Source of the DNA: Polyangiaceae bacterium
Lineage (GTDB): Bacteria > Myxococcota_A > Polyangia > Polyangiales > Polyangiaceae
Direction of reading: 5' to 3'
DNA: 64,000 nt
Assembly: GCA_019637295.1 (NCBI GenBank)
Contig: JAHBVX010000013.1
Span: 62,001 to 126,000 of the forward strand
In this document: piece after piece, positions 4,064 to 20,074 of the stretch
Layout of the letters: every line of letters starts with the position of its first letter
Numbering within the stretch: the stretch's first letter is position 1
The notes under the pieces: model-generated
What the model saw: the letters and a program-made list of their open reading frames with translations, nothing else
Database searches by the model: none
Told to the model about the DNA's origin: nothing
Made by a program: the position numbers and the translations under genes

Positions 4064-5040
4064 TCGCCCGGCTCCGGCGGTGCTGGAGCAGGCACCGACG
4101 CCGAGGGTGCAGCCGGCGCCTGGGGCTTGGGACTCGGGGCCTTGCCCGTCACCAGTTCCGCCTCCAGCCGCACCCAGTCTTCCAGGTCTTCACCGACGTC
4201 GAAGTAGTCCAGATCGAAGTGCCGACCGTTGATGTAGATCAGCGGGGTCCCCTCGAGCCCGAGAGCGTCCCCTTGCTTGCGGTCTCTTGCGACCGCGTCC
4301 GCGACCGGTTCGCTGTCCAGTTCTTCGCGGAAGCGACGCATGTCGAGCCCCGCGGCGCGCGCAGCTTCCTGTAGACCCGTGGCGTCGAGGGGCTTGGGGT
4401 GACGCTCGAACAAGGCGCGGTGCATGGCCCAGAACTTCTCTTGGCGCGCCGCCGCCATGGAGGCGCGCGCAGCCTTCTCCGCGTTCTTGTGGATCGCGAG
4501 CGGATAGTTCTTGAACACCAGCTTGACGTCCGAGGAGTAACGCTCGACGAGCGAGTCGAGCAGCGGCGCCGTGCGCGCGCAGAACGGACACTCGAAGTCC
4601 GCCCACTCCACGATCACGACCGCGGCGTTCGGTGCGCCCTTCTCGGGCGATCCGTCGATGGTGATCTGCTTCACCTCACTCGGCGAGAAGCGCTTCTTGA
4701 ACGCGGCCTCCACCTGCGACCGGGTCTTGCCCTTTTGCACCTGCTTGACCAGGAAGCGCGCCGCTGGCGCGCACGCCTTGCAGTCCCGTGACTCCTTCAC
4801 GCACACGGCCAGGCTCACGGGTTGATCCGGACAGGGCGCCAGGAACTCGGACACGGCGCTCGACCACTCGCGCTTCTCTCGCGCACGCAGCCCCGAGGTG
4901 TCCACCTTGGGCAACTCCACGAGCTCCGCTGCCTCGGGCGCCGGGTCGGGCCCCTTCCCACCCTCCCCGGGCGAGCGACAGGTGGAAAGCCGGAGGCTGA
5001 GCAGCGACGCGGCGATCAAGGCTCCGGCTCTCCAGAACAT
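4060..5040 (-). CDS. DsbA-like thioredoxin-fold lipoprotein
   Basis: Exported thiol-disulfide protein of 326 residues from the ATG at 5040. That start puts the hydrophobic signal at the N-terminus; a longer frame opens at 5073. The signal ends near LRLSTC (Cys21), an imperfect lipobox. A DsbA/thioredoxin_4 domain spans about residues 135-295, with active site CPFC (151-154) and the cis-proline segment GTPLIYING (about 267). Before it, residues 70-125 carry four more cysteines, including CKAC (87-90), followed by a helical stretch that recalls CcmH-type redox segments. The tail is rich in Pro and Ala. It probably forms or rearranges disulfides in periplasmic proteins. It is coupled to the exonuclease gene by overlapping stop and start codons. 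Confidence 0.85.
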   Translation of the reverse strand: MFWRAGALIAASLLSLRLSTCRSPGEGGKGPDPAPEAAELVELPKVDTSGLRAREKREWSSAVSEFLAPCPDQPVSLAVCVKESRDCKACAPAARFLVKQVQKGKTRSQVEAAFKKRFSPSEVKQITIDGSPEKGAPNAAVVIVEWADFECPFCARTAPLLDSLVERYSSDVKLVFKNYPLAIHKNAEKAARASMAAARQEKFWAMHRALFERHPKPLDATGLQEAARAAGLDMRRFREELDSEPVADAVARDRKQGDALGLEGTPLIYINGRHFDLDYFDVGEDLEDWVRLEAELVTGKAPSPKPQAPAAPSASVPAPAPPEPGE

Positions 5041-13708: not shown

Positions 13709-13751
13709 GGCGCGCTGCGGTGCGGTATTGCGCGCAGGGAGGGCTTGCTCT

Positions 13752-14738
13752 ATGACGCTGGGCTCGATGCGGTTCCTTGCTGCTACCACCCTGAGCCTCG
13801 CGTTGGCGCTGTTCGCCGCAAGCGCGAGGGCCACCATCGTGGAGCGCGTCGTTGCCGTGGTGGGCGAGCGTGCAATCCTGCTGTCCGACGTACGCGAGCG
13901 CGCGCGTCCCATGCTGCTACGCATCTACGAAGAGGTGCCGGGGGGCGCGCAACGCGCCGCAGCCATCTCCCAGACCTACAAGACGATGCTGGAGCGCATG
14001 GTGGACGAGGAGCTCGCCCAGCGCGCAGCGAATCGATCGCGGCTCGTCGTCAGCGCGCAGGAAGTGGACGACGCCATCGGCCGCATCGCGGCGCAGAACA
14101 ACCTCACGGTGGACAAGCTCGTCGCCGAGGCCACCAGCGCAGGCCTCACGGAATCGCAGTACCGAAACGAGATCCGCCGTCAGGTGCTGGAGGCCAAGCT
14201 CGTCAACCTCCGCATTCAGGGTCGCATCCGCATCACCGAGGACGACGTACGCACCGCGTATCGCAAGCTGGTGATGGAGGAGCGGCGCAAGCTCCGCTTC
14301 CGCGCGGCGTGGATTCGACTGGACCTCCCCGCCGGCGCTAGCCGCGACGTGGTGCAGGAGAGTCAGCACGAGGCCGAGCGCCTCGCAGGCTCTGCGCGGC
14401 AGGGCGCCGATTTCGCTGCGCTTGCGCGACAGCACTCGGCCGATACGGCAACGCGAGACGCGGGCGGGGTCCTGGGCAACCTGCGGCCAGGGCTCTTGCC
14501 GCGCGCCGTGGACATCGCCGTACAGGGACTCGAGCCCGGTCAGGTCTCCGAGCCGGTTCGCGCCGGGAGCGCGTACTACGTCGTCAAGCTGCTCGAGCGG
14601 GACGAGTCCCAGCTGCCGTCGTACGAGGAAGCTCGAGACGAGCTGAGCGAGCGCATCTACGTCGAGAAGATGAACAAGGCCCGGCGTACCTGGTTCGACT
14701 CGCTCCGCCGACAGACCCACGTCGAGATTCGGCTCTGA
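13752..14738 (+). CDS. surA: Periplasmic peptidyl-prolyl isomerase/chaperone, SurA family
   Basis: A 328-residue exported chaperone. A signal peptide (about 1-28) is followed by the SurA N-terminal chaperone region beginning IVERVVAVVGERAILLSDV, and by one parvulin PPIase domain (about 185-285) with the typical ADFAALARQHSADTATRDAGG segment. E. coli SurA has two parvulin domains; this one has a single domain, which is common outside gamma-proteobacteria. It would escort unfolded outer-membrane barrels across the periplasm, which fits the many barrel genes in this window. The ATG at 13752 follows a GGGAGGG ribosome-binding site. The gene is convergent with the receptor-kinase gene. Confidence 0.88.
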   Translation: MTLGSMRFLAATTLSLALALFAASARATIVERVVAVVGERAILLSDVRERARPMLLRIYEEVPGGAQRAAAISQTYKTMLERMVDEELAQRAANRSRLVVSAQEVDDAIGRIAAQNNLTVDKLVAEATSAGLTESQYRNEIRRQVLEAKLVNLRIQGRIRITEDDVRTAYRKLVMEERRKLRFRAAWIRLDLPAGASRDVVQESQHEAERLAGSARQGADFAALARQHSADTATRDAGGVLGNLRPGLLPRAVDIAVQGLEPGQVSEPVRAGSAYYVVKLLERDESQLPSYEEARDELSERIYVEKMNKARRTWFDSLRRQTHVEIRL

Positions 14739-14754: not shown

Positions 14755-16410
14755 TCAGCGGCGTCGGGTCGAACCCCAGGGGTGCTGCTTGACGAGCGAC
14801 CAGCCATAGGCGCGTGTGTCCGGGTCCAGCTCGCCCAGAGCCGCAGCCCGAAAGGCCGCCGCGAAATCCTCTACATACTCGAAGCGGTCCTCCGGCTTCT
14901 TCGCGAGCGCGATGGCCAAGACCAGCTCGATCTCGACTGGGACTTGCACGAACGCCCCGGGTTGCTCGGGCTGAGTGTAGAGCACGTCCAAGAGCAGCGG
15001 CCCGATGTCCTCACCCACGAACGGGGGCTGGCCCGTGAGCGTTCGATACGCGAGCGCCGCGAGGGCATACAGATCCGCGCGATGGTCGACCGGCAGCCCC
15101 TGAGCTTGCTCCGGCGCCATGTACTGAGGAGTGCCCATCGCGACCTCGCGGGTGAGCGCGGCGCCACCCTGGATCTTGGACAACCCGAAGTCGAGCACCT
15201 TCCACTTCTGCGGCAGCGAGTCCACCAGGAACAAGTTGGCCGGCTTCAGGTCGCGATGGACCACTCCCGCGTCCCGCACCGCAGCGAGCGCGCCCGCGGC
15301 GTGATCCACCATGGTCACCACCGTCCCGACCGGCAGCCGGCCGTCGTCGGCTCGTCGCAAGTAGTACGCGAGGTCGTGCCCCTCGAGCAGCTCCATCGCG
15401 ATGAAGGGACCGCCATTCGGTGTGAAACCGAGCTCGTACACTTCGGCGACATGCTCGCTGGGCACGGCAGCGGCCGCCTGGGCCTCGCGCATGAAGCGCT
15501 GCACGTACTCGGCGTTCTCCAGCATGTTCGCGTGCAACAGCTTGAGCGCCACTCGGCGCGCGGTCAGCAGGTGAACGGCAGCATAGACCTCGCCCATTCC
15601 GCCACGCCCGAGCAGATGCTCGAGGCGGTAGTCTCCCAGCGTTTGGCCGCTCATGTGACCTTCGCCTGTGCGCAGTGCCCAATCGAGCTCACTGCGGGCT
15701 TCGGCCAGCAGCGCTTCGCGTTGCCGCAGCTCGAATCTCATCTGCTCGGCACCCTGGAGGGCGCCGGTCGCCGCTCGACGGCTGCTGCGCGCCAAGTAGT
15801 AGGTCAACCCGAAGACCACCTGCATCATGACGACTCGGTACCAGCGAGACAGCTCCGGCAGGTCGTCGACCGAGAACAGGCTGTGGTCCGGTAACACGCT
15901 GGCCGCGATGCATGAGGTGATGAGCAGGTAGAGCAACGCGATCGTCGCGTACACGGCGCGTGCCGCCTCAGCCGCGCTGGACAAGCCAAAGAAGAAGATC
16001 GCGACAGCCAGCATGGACGCGGCCGCCGAGAACAGCCCCAGGTAGTAGATGACCAAGACGCCCAGCGCCGCGCCCAGGGTGCCCACGATCACGATCAAGC
16101 GATCCGAGTAGCGCGCCTCGTCGCCGATCAACCACACGGTCGCCAGACACAGCACGAGCAACGACGACGCGAGCCCCGCGGTCGTGCTCCGTAGCCAGGC
16201 AGGGCCCGGCAAGACCAACAGGAAGCCGACCAACACCACGAGTAGTCCGGCGAGCGACTTGAAGAACACGCGGGTGCGTGCGATCTCTTCGCGGCGCTCG
16301 GGGGACACGCTAGCCACCGGTACGGACCAGGGAGCGGCCGACGCGGGCACGGGCTCTTGGGCGGGATCGAGCGAGGTCACGAGCCACCCCATCCTAGCCC
16401 CATCGGCCAC
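14755..16410 (-). CDS. Receptor Ser/Thr kinase with six N-terminal membrane helices
   Basis: The 551 residues begin with about six transmembrane helices (residues 50-207), continue with a helical linker (about 215-250) and end in a complete kinase domain (261-530). The kinase has LGRGGMGEVY, K290, HRDLKPAN (385-392), DFG (407-409) and GTPQYMAPEQ. The arrangement (membrane sensor first, kinase last) is the reverse of the usual PknB-type order. The helices may sense a membrane-soluble or physical signal. It is probably cotranscribed after the pseudokinase-thioredoxin gene, 21 nt upstream. The start is GTG at 16410; the ATG at 16392 is equally possible. Confidence 0.9.
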   Translation of the reverse strand: MADGARMGWLVTSLDPAQEPVPASAAPWSVPVASVSPERREEIARTRVFFKSLAGLLVVLVGFLLVLPGPAWLRSTTAGLASSLLVLCLATVWLIGDEARYSDRLIVIVGTLGAALGVLVIYYLGLFSAAASMLAVAIFFFGLSSAAEAARAVYATIALLYLLITSCIAASVLPDHSLFSVDDLPELSRWYRVVMMQVVFGLTYYLARSSRRAATGALQGAEQMRFELRQREALLAEARSELDWALRTGEGHMSGQTLGDYRLEHLLGRGGMGEVYAAVHLLTARRVALKLLHANMLENAEYVQRFMREAQAAAAVPSEHVAEVYELGFTPNGGPFIAMELLEGHDLAYYLRRADDGRLPVGTVVTMVDHAAGALAAVRDAGVVHRDLKPANLFLVDSLPQKWKVLDFGLSKIQGGAALTREVAMGTPQYMAPEQAQGLPVDHRADLYALAALAYRTLTGQPPFVGEDIGPLLLDVLYTQPEQPGAFVQVPVEIELVLAIALAKKPEDRFEYVEDFAAAFRAAALGELDPDTRAYGWSLVKQHPWGSTRRR

Positions 16411-16431: not shown

Positions 16432-18729
16432 TCAGCGCTCGCCACAGACGGCTCGATAGATCTCGCCGCGCGGGGCTCCTGCCTGGATCATCCGCCTCGC
16501 CCAGTCCACCTCTTCATCGACGACCCGCGCGAGCTCGGCGGCGGTGCGCGCCCCCTCGAGCCGGCGCCCGTTGATGAAGGTCGTGGGCGTCCCCTTCACC
16601 TCGAGAGAGTCCCCCTCGCGCACGTCGTCTTGCACGACGCGCGTGTGGTCCCCGCGTCCGAGGGCGCCGAGCGCCCGCGCCGTGTCCAGGCCGGCGCGCG
16701 ACGCCAGTCGCTCCCACACATCTGACGCGCCGAGCTCCGCCTGAGCCTCGAACAGCAGGTCGTGCACCGCCCAGAAGCCCGGGTCACCCTTCTGCCGGCG
16801 CGCCTCGATGGCCAACTCGGACGCCTTGCGCGCGTGTGCGTGGTTGGGCAACGGGAAGTGCTTGAATGCGATGCGGACATCACCTCCACGCTTCGCGAAG
16901 ATTTCCTCGAGCGTGGTGTGGAGCCGCCTGCAGTGCGAACACTGGAACTCGCTGTACACGACCAAGGTAGCCAGGGCGTTGTTCGAACCCCGCACGGGTG
17001 CACCACCAATGGGCGGGCAACTGCGCGCCGAGACGTCGCTGCCGATACCGATCAGGTTCTTGCGCGTGCGCGCGGCGTACAGCTCACTCGGGCGTACGCC
17101 TGTCCCGAGCAGCGTGCGGGAAGCTCTCACCTCGGCCCGCACGAGCGACTCCAATGCTCGGTGATCCAGGAACCCCTCGATGCGGGAACCATTGAGGTAG
17201 AACGTCGGTGTCGCGCGCACCCCCATCTGGCCGGCGAGCCTCAGATCTTCAGCGACGTCGGCCTTTGCACCCGACTCCTCACCGAACCGCCGTCTCTCGC
17301 CCTCGCTCACCTGCTGGGCGGCAAGCACGCGCAGGAACTCCTCCGCGCCGAGTGGGCCACCGTGGCGCCCGATGCTGCGCAACAGACCCGCGAACGCGCC
17401 GCTGCCGCGGGCTCGAAACAGCCCTTGAGCAAGCTCGGCGGAGGTGCGCGCACCGACGTGAGCGGTCAGCGGTCGATGGCGCCAGACGATCTGCAGATCG
17501 TCGGGGAAGGCGAGCAGCAGCTTGTCGATCGAGGCCAGGAAGCGCCGGGTGTGCGGGCAGTGCAGATCGCCGAACACCACCAAGTGCGCCACCGCGTCCG
17601 GGCGACCGAACGCTGGTTGCGCCGGCGTGAGCGGCAAGGGTGGGTCGCCGGCGTGAACGAAGGGCCTGGGCTCACCGGCGGCAGGCGGAGCCACCGGTGC
17701 TGGCGCGTCGGCGCTCGCGGGGGGCTCGGGCTCGGGTTCCGGCACCGGCACCGGGGGTTCGACGGCCGACGCGGGAGGCTCGACGGGCGGAGGCGCAGGG
17801 GGGTCGCTCGTGCCAGCGTCATCGCCAGCAGGCGCTGCTTGCGTAACGGTCGCTGCGGGTTCGCCGCGCAGCTTCGCCAGCGCGATGACACCAACCACAC
17901 CGATGAGCAGCAGCAGCGCTCCAGCGATCACGAGCAACGTCGGCAGGGCTGACTCGCGCTTCGGACTCGGGCGCGTCGCTGAGCCGGGCGGCACAGCCGG
18001 CGGGGGCGGCGGGGGCGCAGCCTCGTCCGTTCGAGGAGGCGGCGCGGCGATGGGTGCGACGGGCGCAACGCTGGCTTGCGGGGCAGACGCGGTGGCGGCG
18101 CGGCGCAGCTCCCGCGCGAAGGCGTGAGCGTCGGGTTGTCGCCGCGATGGGTGCGGCGCGGTGGCCCGCGCAACCACCTCACGGATCGCGTCGCTGGGTT
18201 CGGGCATCAGCCACTCGGTCATCCGCCCGAGAGCGAACACGTCCGAGAGGGTAGTCGCCTCGCCATGCGAGGACAGCTCCGGCGCGTCCCACTCGCTCCG
18301 CGGAAGTCTCAGCTCGGCCAGGCGGGTGAGCTCGCGCGCGCCGAGGCCAGCCACGAGCGCGCTGCCACCGTGCTCGAACACGACCTCGGGCGCGAGACTG
18401 CCATGGCACAGGCCACGATCGTGCAGGGTCGCTACCGCGTCGGCGGCGCCCGCCACCACGGCGAGCAGCGACTCGCTCGAGCGCCCGCGCAGCACGGCGA
18501 GGGGCCTCGCGACAGAAGGGAGGGGAAACACTACGCCGAGCCCCGCGGGCTCCGAGGTCGCGGGCTCGGGTGGGACGAGCTGCGGGGCACCGAACGCGCC
18601 ACGCGCCAACCGCGACGTCGCCGCGTGGAGCAACTCCGGGCGACCCGTGGGCAGGCGCAGCGTCAGCGACGGCGGGGCCACGCCGGCCTCCCAGCGGGCC
18701 TGCCCAGGGTGAAGGTCGTCGCTTGTCAC
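16432..18729 (-). CDS. Pseudokinase fused to two periplasmic DsbA-like thioredoxin domains
   Basis: This 765-residue protein is a very unusual fusion. Residues 30-215 look like the remains of a protein kinase: there is no glycine loop, the HRD site reads CHGSLAPEVV (109-118), DFG reads AGLG (127-130), but DAPEL (148-152) and a C-lobe remain. A Pro-rich linker and one transmembrane helix (263-286) lead to a second Pro/Glu-rich linker. A first DsbA-like domain follows (about 378-550) with active site CPHT (391-394, single cysteine) and cis-Pro segment ATPTF. The second (about 585-760) has CSHC (597-600) and cis-Pro segment GTPTTF. I infer an inner-membrane protein linking cytoplasmic signalling to periplasmic thiol chemistry. 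It starts with GTG after AAGG and precedes a receptor-kinase gene. Confidence 0.85.
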   Translation of the reverse strand: MTSDDLHPGQARWEAGVAPPSLTLRLPTGRPELLHAATSRLARGAFGAPQLVPPEPATSEPAGLGVVFPLPSVARPLAVLRGRSSESLLAVVAGAADAVATLHDRGLCHGSLAPEVVFEHGGSALVAGLGARELTRLAELRLPRSEWDAPELSSHGEATTLSDVFALGRMTEWLMPEPSDAIREVVARATAPHPSRRQPDAHAFARELRRAATASAPQASVAPVAPIAAPPPRTDEAAPPPPPPAVPPGSATRPSPKRESALPTLLVIAGALLLLIGVVGVIALAKLRGEPAATVTQAAPAGDDAGTSDPPAPPPVEPPASAVEPPVPVPEPEPEPPASADAPAPVAPPAAGEPRPFVHAGDPPLPLTPAQPAFGRPDAVAHLVVFGDLHCPHTRRFLASIDKLLLAFPDDLQIVWRHRPLTAHVGARTSAELAQGLFRARGSGAFAGLLRSIGRHGGPLGAEEFLRVLAAQQVSEGERRRFGEESGAKADVAEDLRLAGQMGVRATPTFYLNGSRIEGFLDHRALESLVRAEVRASRTLLGTGVRPSELYAARTRKNLIGIGSDVSARSCPPIGGAPVRGSNNALATLVVYSEFQCSHCRRLHTTLEEIFAKRGGDVRIAFKHFPLPNHAHARKASELAIEARRQKGDPGFWAVHDLLFEAQAELGASDVWERLASRAGLDTARALGALGRGDHTRVVQDDVREGDSLEVKGTPTTFINGRRLEGARTAAELARVVDEEVDWARRMIQAGAPRGEIYRAVCGER

Positions 18730-18880: not shown

Positions 18881-18895
18881 TGGCACGCGGTGTGC
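18881..18895 (+). promoter_or_regulatory. Possible sigma-54 promoter element
   Basis: TGGCACG-N4-GTGC at 18881-18895 differs by one base from the sigma-54 consensus TGGCACG-N4-TTGC. It lies only about 10-15 nt before the start of the Fn3 protein, which would leave almost no leader. A chance match is possible. Confidence 0.25.
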
Positions 18896-18910
18896 TCTTA
18901 AAGCGTGACC

Positions 18911-20074
18911 ATGTTTCGCGCGCTCGCTGTCCTCGCGACGGTCTTGTCGATCGGGCTGTGCTCGATCCCGGCTTCGGCGCAATCCATCACCGTGCCGCAG
19001 GCGTTCCAGCGCAAGCTCTCCCATCGGCTCGACGACAAGAACAACCGCTGGATGAACTATCAGGACTGCGTCAGCGGGGACGTGTTCACCTGGGAGACCA
19101 AGGTCGCTCAGTTCTCGGGACTGCTGTACGAGGTCTGGGCCGGCAAAGGCAGCGACGACTGCACGATCAAGGAGAATCGCACCGGCGGGACGGCCACCTG
19201 CTGGAATCTGTTCTCTACGTCCCCCACCAAGGCGGACACCCAGGTCCAGATCGCGGTGCAAGACGTCGCAGCTCAGCTGGGCACGGGCGGACCGGCGGCG
19301 TGTGAGCGCACCGATCTGCCGTCCGCCGGTGAGGCGATCCGACTGTACTTCATGTTGGTGAGCGGCAACGAGGCCGTCACCACGGCGATCTGGGAGACGA
19401 AGCTCGATCTGCTGGGCCCTCCCGCGCCCACCGGCGTCTCGGCCGGCGTGGGCGAGCGGCGACTGATCGTGAGCTGGACGCCCAACCCAACGGACGACCT
19501 CATCGGCTACAAGCTGTACTGCGCCCCTTCCTCGGTTGGCGGCACCGCACCGGCCGCTGGCCCGACGGGGAGCGGCCTCGGGGGCGCCGCTGGCGATGGC
19601 GGTCTAGCCGACGCAGCAGCGGGCGCGTCGGGCGCGTCGGGCGCAGCCGGCAGCACGAGCAGCGGTGGCGCGGCCGGTAGCGGTGGTGCGGCTGGCAGCG
19701 GTGGCGCAGGGACCGGCAACCCCGCCTGTCCTTCAGCGAACATCCTCGCCGGGGTCCGCCCGGATCCAGCCTACGAGTGTGCTTCCGTGGAGAGCCAGAT
19801 CACCACCTCCGCCGAGGCCAAGAACCTCATCAACGGCACGCCTTACGCGGTCGGTGTCGCCGCCGTGGACCTGGCCGGCAACAGCGGTCCGCTCTCCGCG
19901 GTCGCCTGTGGCACGCCACAAGAGGTGGACGACTTCTTCGAGCTCTATCGCCGCGCCGGGGGCCAGGGCGGGGGCGGATTCTGCAGCATCCATCGCGGCC
20001 AGCTCGGCACCGCAGGGGCGCTCCTGGGCGCGCTGATGGTGCTGGGCCTCCTGCGGCGGAGGAGTCGCTCGTGA
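18911..20074 (+). CDS. Secreted Fn3 protein with MYXO-CTERM-like tail
   Basis: A 387-residue exported protein with a signal peptide ending ASAQ. The N-terminal part (about 25-170) has several cysteines and no family I recognise. A fibronectin-III-like domain begins near APTGVSAGVGERRLIVSWTP (about 178) and its last strands (INGTPYAVGVAAVDLAGN) come after a 70-80 residue Gly/Ala/Ser-rich insertion. The C-terminus has Gly-rich FCSIHR, a hydrophobic helix and RRR. This matches the MYXO-CTERM tripartite pattern (Cys, helix, basic tail) used for sorting to the cell surface in myxobacteria. The start is ATG 18911 (or GTG 18905). Its stop overlaps the next start as GTGA. Confidence 0.82.
   Translation: MFRALAVLATVLSIGLCSIPASAQSITVPQAFQRKLSHRLDDKNNRWMNYQDCVSGDVFTWETKVAQFSGLLYEVWAGKGSDDCTIKENRTGGTATCWNLFSTSPTKADTQVQIAVQDVAAQLGTGGPAACERTDLPSAGEAIRLYFMLVSGNEAVTTAIWETKLDLLGPPAPTGVSAGVGERRLIVSWTPNPTDDLIGYKLYCAPSSVGGTAPAAGPTGSGLGGAAGDGGLADAAAGASGASGAAGSTSSGGAAGSGGAAGSGGAGTGNPACPSANILAGVRPDPAYECASVESQITTSAEAKNLINGTPYAVGVAAVDLAGNSGPLSAVACGTPQEVDDFFELYRRAGGQGGGGFCSIHRGQLGTAGALLGALMVLGLLRRRSRS

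Follow-up and report, generated by a model that had tools for sequence, protein, structure and literature searches.

PknE (Rv1743) of Mycobacterium tuberculosis is among the closest described systems. It is described as a Ser/Thr kinase with an N-terminal Hanks-type kinase domain, one transmembrane (TM) helix and a single C-terminal, extracytoplasmic DsbA-like domain with a CPPC site (PMC3792642, PMC1262709). The protein analyzed below also shares a kinase fold, degraded catalytic motifs and a tie to the membrane with MviN (ActPs3) and EssB/YukC, as these are presented in the sections used from a pseudokinase review, where a docking-surface role is reported for the EssB/YukC pseudokinases (PMC12599244). 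An extracytoplasmic thiol domain, unlike in our protein, was not found described for any of these in those sections, and the terms ‘thioredoxin’, ‘DsbA’, ‘myxo’ and ‘Polyang’ are absent from its main text. A further point of comparison is AGR2, a one-cysteine (CXXS) member of the PDI family whose cysteine is required both for binding to IRE1beta, a kinase-type sensor of ER stress, and for inhibiting it; in the same paper, a mixed disulfide linking AGR2 to IRE1beta is argued against, and one linking AGR2 to MUC2 is regarded as unconfirmed (PMC10907643). AGR2 and IRE1beta are eukaryotic and are two separate proteins, whereas ours is one chain, and the comparison is an analogy only.

Here we describe a gene, pk-DsbA, in a window of 64,000 nucleotides from a Polyangiaceae bacterium, the window being the whole stretch of DNA that was analyzed (Table 1). 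The reading frame starts with GTG and has no internal stop; the open frame totals 768 residues, so a longer N-terminus is not available. Hydropathy gives one strong peak, the TM helix. Pfam recognizes Thioredoxin_4/DSBA twice (E 3e-34); its match to a kinase model (PF07714, residues 85-170) stays below threshold, with E 0.048 and a score of 13.4 bits where 23.1 would be needed. The N-terminus is probably cytoplasmic and the DsbA domains periplasmic. An earlier note on this DNA had read the protein as a pseudokinase, one TM segment and a monothiol followed by a dithiol DsbA-like domain, with CPHT and CSHC as the respective sites; both sites are present, and the intact frame, the profile searches and the folds bear out the layout.

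Table 1. Features of the pk-DsbA gene and its neighbors (window coordinates)
Feature	Position	Strand	Remarks
pk-DsbA gene, 765 aa	16432..18729	-	pseudokinase - Pro-rich linker - TM - DsbA1 (monothiol) - DsbA2 (dithiol)
Putative pseudokinase domain, residues 1-214	18088..18729	-	truncated N-lobe; HRD>HGS, DFG>GLG
Pro-rich linker, probably cytoplasmic, residues 215-261	17947..18087	-	disorder inferred from composition
Single TM helix, about residues 262-284	17878..17946	-	hydropathy peak 265-283
DsbA-like domain 1, monothiol, residues 360-568	17026..17652	-
CPHT site, residues 391-394 (C391)	17548..17559	-	sole Cys of domain 1
C571, linker Cys	17017..17019	-	26 residues before CxxC
DsbA-like domain 2, dithiol, residues 572-765	16435..17016	-
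CSHC redox site, residues 597-600 (C597, C600)	16930..16941	-
C762, C-terminal Cys	16444..16446	-	probable disulfide partner of C571
Neighboring receptor kinase, 21 nt downstream	14755..16410	-	intact catalytic motifs; outside conserved core
surA-like peptidylprolyl isomerase, conserved neighbor	13728..14738	+	convergent
Divergent MXAN_2561-family MYXO-CTERM-type Cys-containing protein, fn3 match	18905..20074	+	NCBIfam match below cut-off

The order of kinase, single TM helix and extracytoplasmic DsbA domain, with the topology as predicted, is that of PknE and therefore not new, and the earlier note, which knew of no described family with this order, was in part wrong. What sets pk-DsbA apart, judged from the sequence, is a kinase without catalytic residues, a first domain that is monothiol, with CPHT in place of a CxxC next to the TM helix, and an appended dithiol domain. 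The last is carried by 10 of the 17 pseudokinase-bearing members found, compared with the one DsbA-like domain of PknE. A dead kinase combined with a monothiol and an appended dithiol DsbA domain was not found described, by title or opening of the abstract, among the open-licence PMC papers listed. For the individual DsbA domains of pk-DsbA, the top Foldseek and profile matches include the structures of BdbD, ScsC and DsbA; these are solved DsbA-type proteins that have no kinase part, and no kinase-DsbA chain is among the matches listed.

Among 108 genomes of the window's taxonomic family, 22 members of the pk-DsbA family were found, the window's included. As a match had to cover the N-terminal or the TM part to be chosen as a member, this count is a lower bound. 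Three architectures occur: pseudokinase-TM-DsbA1-DsbA2 (10 members), pseudokinase-TM-DsbA1 with a monothiol domain (7 members) and TM-DsbA1-DsbA2 without a pseudokinase (5 members, in the genomes that we number G038 and G077-G080). The pseudokinase form is present in at least 17 of the 108 genomes; member genome G030 shares the window's genus. When the search was widened to the order (183 genomes, six candidates scored per genome), no match to the kinase part was among those listed for the 75 genomes of other families, and a class-level search of 116 genomes gave three matches covering the kinase part, all within the window's own family. Scanning contigs with a single pk-DsbA protein as the query gave no match; with alignment A4 as the query, 2 of the best 80 loci from a larger number (L079 and L080) carry an in-frame pseudokinase. 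A broader tally, of 88 of the 108 genomes, consists mostly of other tandem DsbA proteins rather than the pk-DsbA architecture. Resolution in the tree of domain 1 is poor, with stars on 6 of its 19 inner branches; on this weak tree the architecture requires at least three changes and the presence of the neighboring kinase at least one, with three rows uncounted.

The kinase fold on which the earlier note had staked its reading was found both by profile search and by AlphaFold2 with Foldseek. A profile of 15 pk-DsbA N-termini matches PknA (E 2e-23) and StkP (E 1e-22) in the PDB. AlphaFold2 modeled the pseudokinase domain from three sequences (pLDDT 80.7, pTM 0.81). With this model as the Foldseek query, the top three rows all belong to PknI of M. 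tuberculosis, and the first ten, at E about 3e-8 to 8e-8 and TMq 0.60-0.69, also include PknA, PknB, ABL and EGFR. VIA-align places BRAF in the top row (Z 18.6, 204 aligned, rmsd 3.5), and PknA reaches the same Z of 18.6 (206 aligned, rmsd 4.2). At the level of a predicted structure, the protein kinase fold of the N-terminal part is confirmed.

The catalytic motifs are degraded, as had been read from the window: HRDxKxxN is HGSLAPEV and DFG is GLG. No glycine loop aligns in the window's protein, its N-lobe being cut short. In all 17 aligned pseudokinases the HRD aspartate, its asparagine and the DFG aspartate are missing, and the position of the HRD arginine is occupied by glycine. The VAIK lysine is missing in 16 of the 17; in G030 a lysine aligns there, within a shortened N-lobe whose alignment is uncertain. 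The alignment also holds seven reference kinases, which serve as a yardstick rather than an independent control because six, taken from loci, were chosen by their intact HRD and DFG and the seventh is the neighboring kinase. The row for G044 was taken from locus L080, and the rows for G045 and G044 begin within longer open frames, at chosen points. By its lost catalytic residues, pk-DsbA appears to be a Hanks-type pseudokinase, and the derived HRD/DFG motif common to 17 members indicates an old, inherited loss, not the wreckage of one gene.

In the outer half, domain 2 has the marks of the DsbA fold, namely a thioredoxin fold with a helical insert, a CxxC site and a cis-proline motif (TP). T714 and P715 are invariant in the nine members of alignment A4; among the 14 of alignment A3 the proline is invariant and the threonine varies. 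Domain 1 does not have the dithiol site: it carries one cysteine followed by threonine or serine at +3, or no cysteine at all. The nucleophile is present in 19 of the 22 members and a second cysteine at +3 in none, with T or S at that position in all 22. In each of the seven single-domain members, the monothiol cysteine is the only one in the DsbA part, counting from 60 residues before the site. Every one of the 15 second domains has CxxC, plus a cysteine 25-26 residues before it and another 150-165 residues after it. This pair, the equivalent of C571 and C762, had escaped the earlier note. Outside the family, a regular-expression count over the loci examined (331 sites, of which 290 are non-family DsbA CxxC sites) finds such a pair at only 2 of the 290, with the first cysteine at 4 and the second at 2; the C-terminal range of this count (+158 to +169) misses member G038 (+150), so that by that range the family figure is 14 of 15. 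Being nearly absent from the 290 other sites, the pair probably forms a structural disulfide. Three two-domain members (G042, G078 and G079) have lost the cysteine of domain 1 and kept the other four; the retention of C571 and C762 in these proteins disfavors C571 as a resolving cysteine for C391.

The predicted arrangement of the two DsbA domains relative to each other is of low confidence (pTM 0.52). UGGT gave the best Foldseek E-values for the tandem DsbA part, yet over the joined range the rmsd is 11-13.5 A and TMq reaches at most 0.42; UGGT was rejected as a relative and is taken to share only the domain fold.

Other DsbA-like proteins occur in these genomes. In the window genome (G000), adjacent reading frames on contig C4 (121238-125073, loci L002-L006) encode a tandem array of five or more DsbA-like domains that seem to belong to two neighboring genes. 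These repeated domains are homologous to domains 1 and 2 of pk-DsbA; five of them have CxxC, and a kinase part was not seen in the frames examined. Matches with several DsbA domains are also found elsewhere in the family's genomes. The genome of one single-domain member has a separate lipoprotein-like gene (L012, G015:C10) with a CPFT (monothiol) and then a CPFC (dithiol) DsbA domain, a monothiol-dithiol pair without a kinase part. A further DsbA-like domain lies in the window itself at 4213-4659 on the minus strand and shares 36% identity with a part of domain 2. As for a source of oxidizing power, the window genome has a VKOR match, and a DsbB match was not found in it. At G000:C24:5535-6476 (L194), a VKOR match lies near a DsbA-like match, each in a 389-residue open frame, which suggests a VKOR-thioredoxin fusion as the oxidant.

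The pk-DsbA family has a defined architecture, a kinase fold kept without its catalytic residues, a strict cysteine pattern and a conserved locus; its topology, thiol chemistry and signalling are what we infer. We tentatively favor the reading of pk-DsbA as a thiol-disulfide foldase or receptor, tethered to the inner membrane, with a non-catalytic scaffold in the cytoplasm. The lone cysteine of domain 1 (CPxT/S) might, by analogy with AGR2, capture client thiols as mixed disulfides. Domain 2, with its CxxC braced by the putative C571-C762 disulfide, could then resolve or exchange these, and the VKOR-type pathway of the window genome may supply the oxidizing power. The pseudokinase would have no phosphotransferase activity; after the example of EssB/YukC, it might serve as a scaffold on which a partner in the cytoplasm docks, or else draw the receptor into dimers. 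That thiol occupancy outside is signalled to the inside is the least certain step. Mixed-disulfide capture cannot be universal, as 3 of the 15 two-domain members have lost the domain-1 cysteine, and the periplasmic part can do without the pseudokinase, as 5 of the 22 members lack it. These five members appear to be the strongest fact against a signalling role.

They also speak for another possibility, which we rate as somewhat less likely: that pk-DsbA is a plain membrane-anchored foldase of the DsbA type whose pseudokinase, inherited from an ancestral receptor kinase resembling PknE, is a remnant that it can do without. The glycine-loop region fails to align in 4 of the 17 pseudokinases, the window's among them, and substitution rates point the same way. 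Over five pairs of members, dN/dS of the pseudokinase rises from 0.24 for the closest relatives through 0.33-0.34 for the two pairs that follow to 0.55-0.70 for the two distant pairs, where dS is high. The corresponding ranges are 0.21-0.54 for DsbA1, 0.12-0.30 for DsbA2 and 0.22-0.64 for the linker with the TM helix; in each of the five pairs the pseudokinase lies above DsbA1 and DsbA2, and its values are roughly those of the presumably unstructured linker and TM part. Its dN/dS is below 1 in every pair, which runs against simple decay and suggests some purifying selection on the pseudokinase, no stronger than that on the linker. Since the linker fares about equally, selection was dropped as proof of pseudokinase function. 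A better sign of retention is given by nine positions of structural kinase character that are invariant in all 15 aligned N-termini (G47, L102, H103, G106, G110, P150, E151, D163 and R197). The kinase fold, still recognizable in 17 members, seems to us the strongest fact against pure decay.

The neighboring genes bring in a further possibility. In the window, the order is a vWA-type gene, a gene for a 184-residue protein and surA (plus strand); the receptor kinase and pk-DsbA (minus); the MXAN_2561-family gene and a gene for an MXAN_2562-family barrel (plus); and a SprT-like gene and recA (minus). The vWA-type gene and recA are named from their sequences. The earlier note called surA convergent, and so it is with respect to the kinase. 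A convergent surA is found beyond the gene at all 10 same-architecture loci and all five pseudokinase-less loci. Among the seven single-domain loci it is found at three; two of the remainder, G052 and G018, are near contig ends, and at the last two, G015 and G040, no surA was seen in the 14-15 kb examined. Genes of the MXAN_2561/2562 type flank 9 of the 10 same-architecture loci (the tenth ends at a contig edge) and all five pseudokinase-less ones, with only the 2561 type matched in G077. Neither MXAN_2561 nor MXAN_2562 was found in the open-licence PMC literature.

pk-DsbA could accordingly be imagined as a dedicated maturation factor for the divergent, cysteine-containing MXAN_2561-family surface protein and, together with SurA, for the MXAN_2562-family barrel. 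The open frames of the 2561 type have 10-16 cysteines in all 13 cases, counting the leader and upstream read-through. Only 2 of the 7 single-domain loci show these neighbors in the stretch examined, however, and a shared neighborhood is no evidence of a client relation. The promoter signals argue against it as well. A sigma54-type -24/-12 element lies at 18881-18896 on the plus strand and faces the MXAN_2561-family gene; it was identified with TGGCAC[GA]-N4-[GA]TGCT, which we take to be the consensus. Elements facing this gene score 10-11 of 12 at all 16 loci (10 being reached by 1-4% of shuffles per locus), while towards pk-DsbA a score of 10 is reached in G030 only and the other 15 loci stay at 9 or below. 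Because the element mostly does not face pk-DsbA, in contrast to the surface-protein gene, the two genes may be expressed differently. A scan for consensus promoters and terminators gave nothing. On balance we consider a dedicated maturation factor improbable.

Slightly less probable still is the model put forward in the earlier note, in which pk-DsbA senses redox or folding state in the periplasm and hands the signal on to the active receptor kinase encoded next to it. This kinase lies on the same strand as pk-DsbA, and its motifs are intact (GRGGMG, VALK, HRDLKPAN and DFG). The full kinase domain described in the note is thus present; its six helices are not borne out, as hydropathy gives four peaks in the N-terminal part at the threshold used and a fifth inside the kinase domain. 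Close orthologues, with 53-62% identity over the N-terminal part outside the window genome, occur in 5 of the 22 genomes with pk-DsbA and are adjacent to it in all five. In the other 17 genomes, several of them incomplete, nothing exceeds 36% identity. Between pk-DsbA and surA, the kinase is present at 5 of the 10 same-architecture loci and absent from the other five, from all five pseudokinase-less loci and from all three single-domain loci with surA in view. With a close orthologue found in only 5 of 22 genomes, the kinase is unlikely to be the general output of pk-DsbA, and its distribution disfavors it as an obligate partner.

A frameshift or assembly error joining a kinase remnant to DsbA domains, the pitfall named in the earlier note, has a practically negligible probability and was rejected, because the domain order recurs, in frames without interruption, in nine other genomes; on the sequences of these relatives, pk-DsbA is a real, conserved family and not a chimera.

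The tethered foldase or receptor that we favor can be taken one step further, to an envelope counterpart of the ER folding-stress receptors: the monothiol trap would be loaded with unfolded thiol clients, the dithiol domain would unload it, and the dead kinase would report occupancy to partners in the cytoplasm by binding or dimerization, not by phosphorylation. This extension is speculative and, as a whole, unlikely. In any case, pk-DsbA is conserved and its outside half has a definable chemistry, and its natural variants, with a single domain, with a domain 1 lacking cysteine or without the pseudokinase, are ready-made controls. If the thiol state outside does reach the inside, pk-DsbA would use a kinase fold to signal with no kinase activity involved; if there is no such signalling, it would illustrate a possible path of decay from a PknE-like receptor to a tethered foldase.
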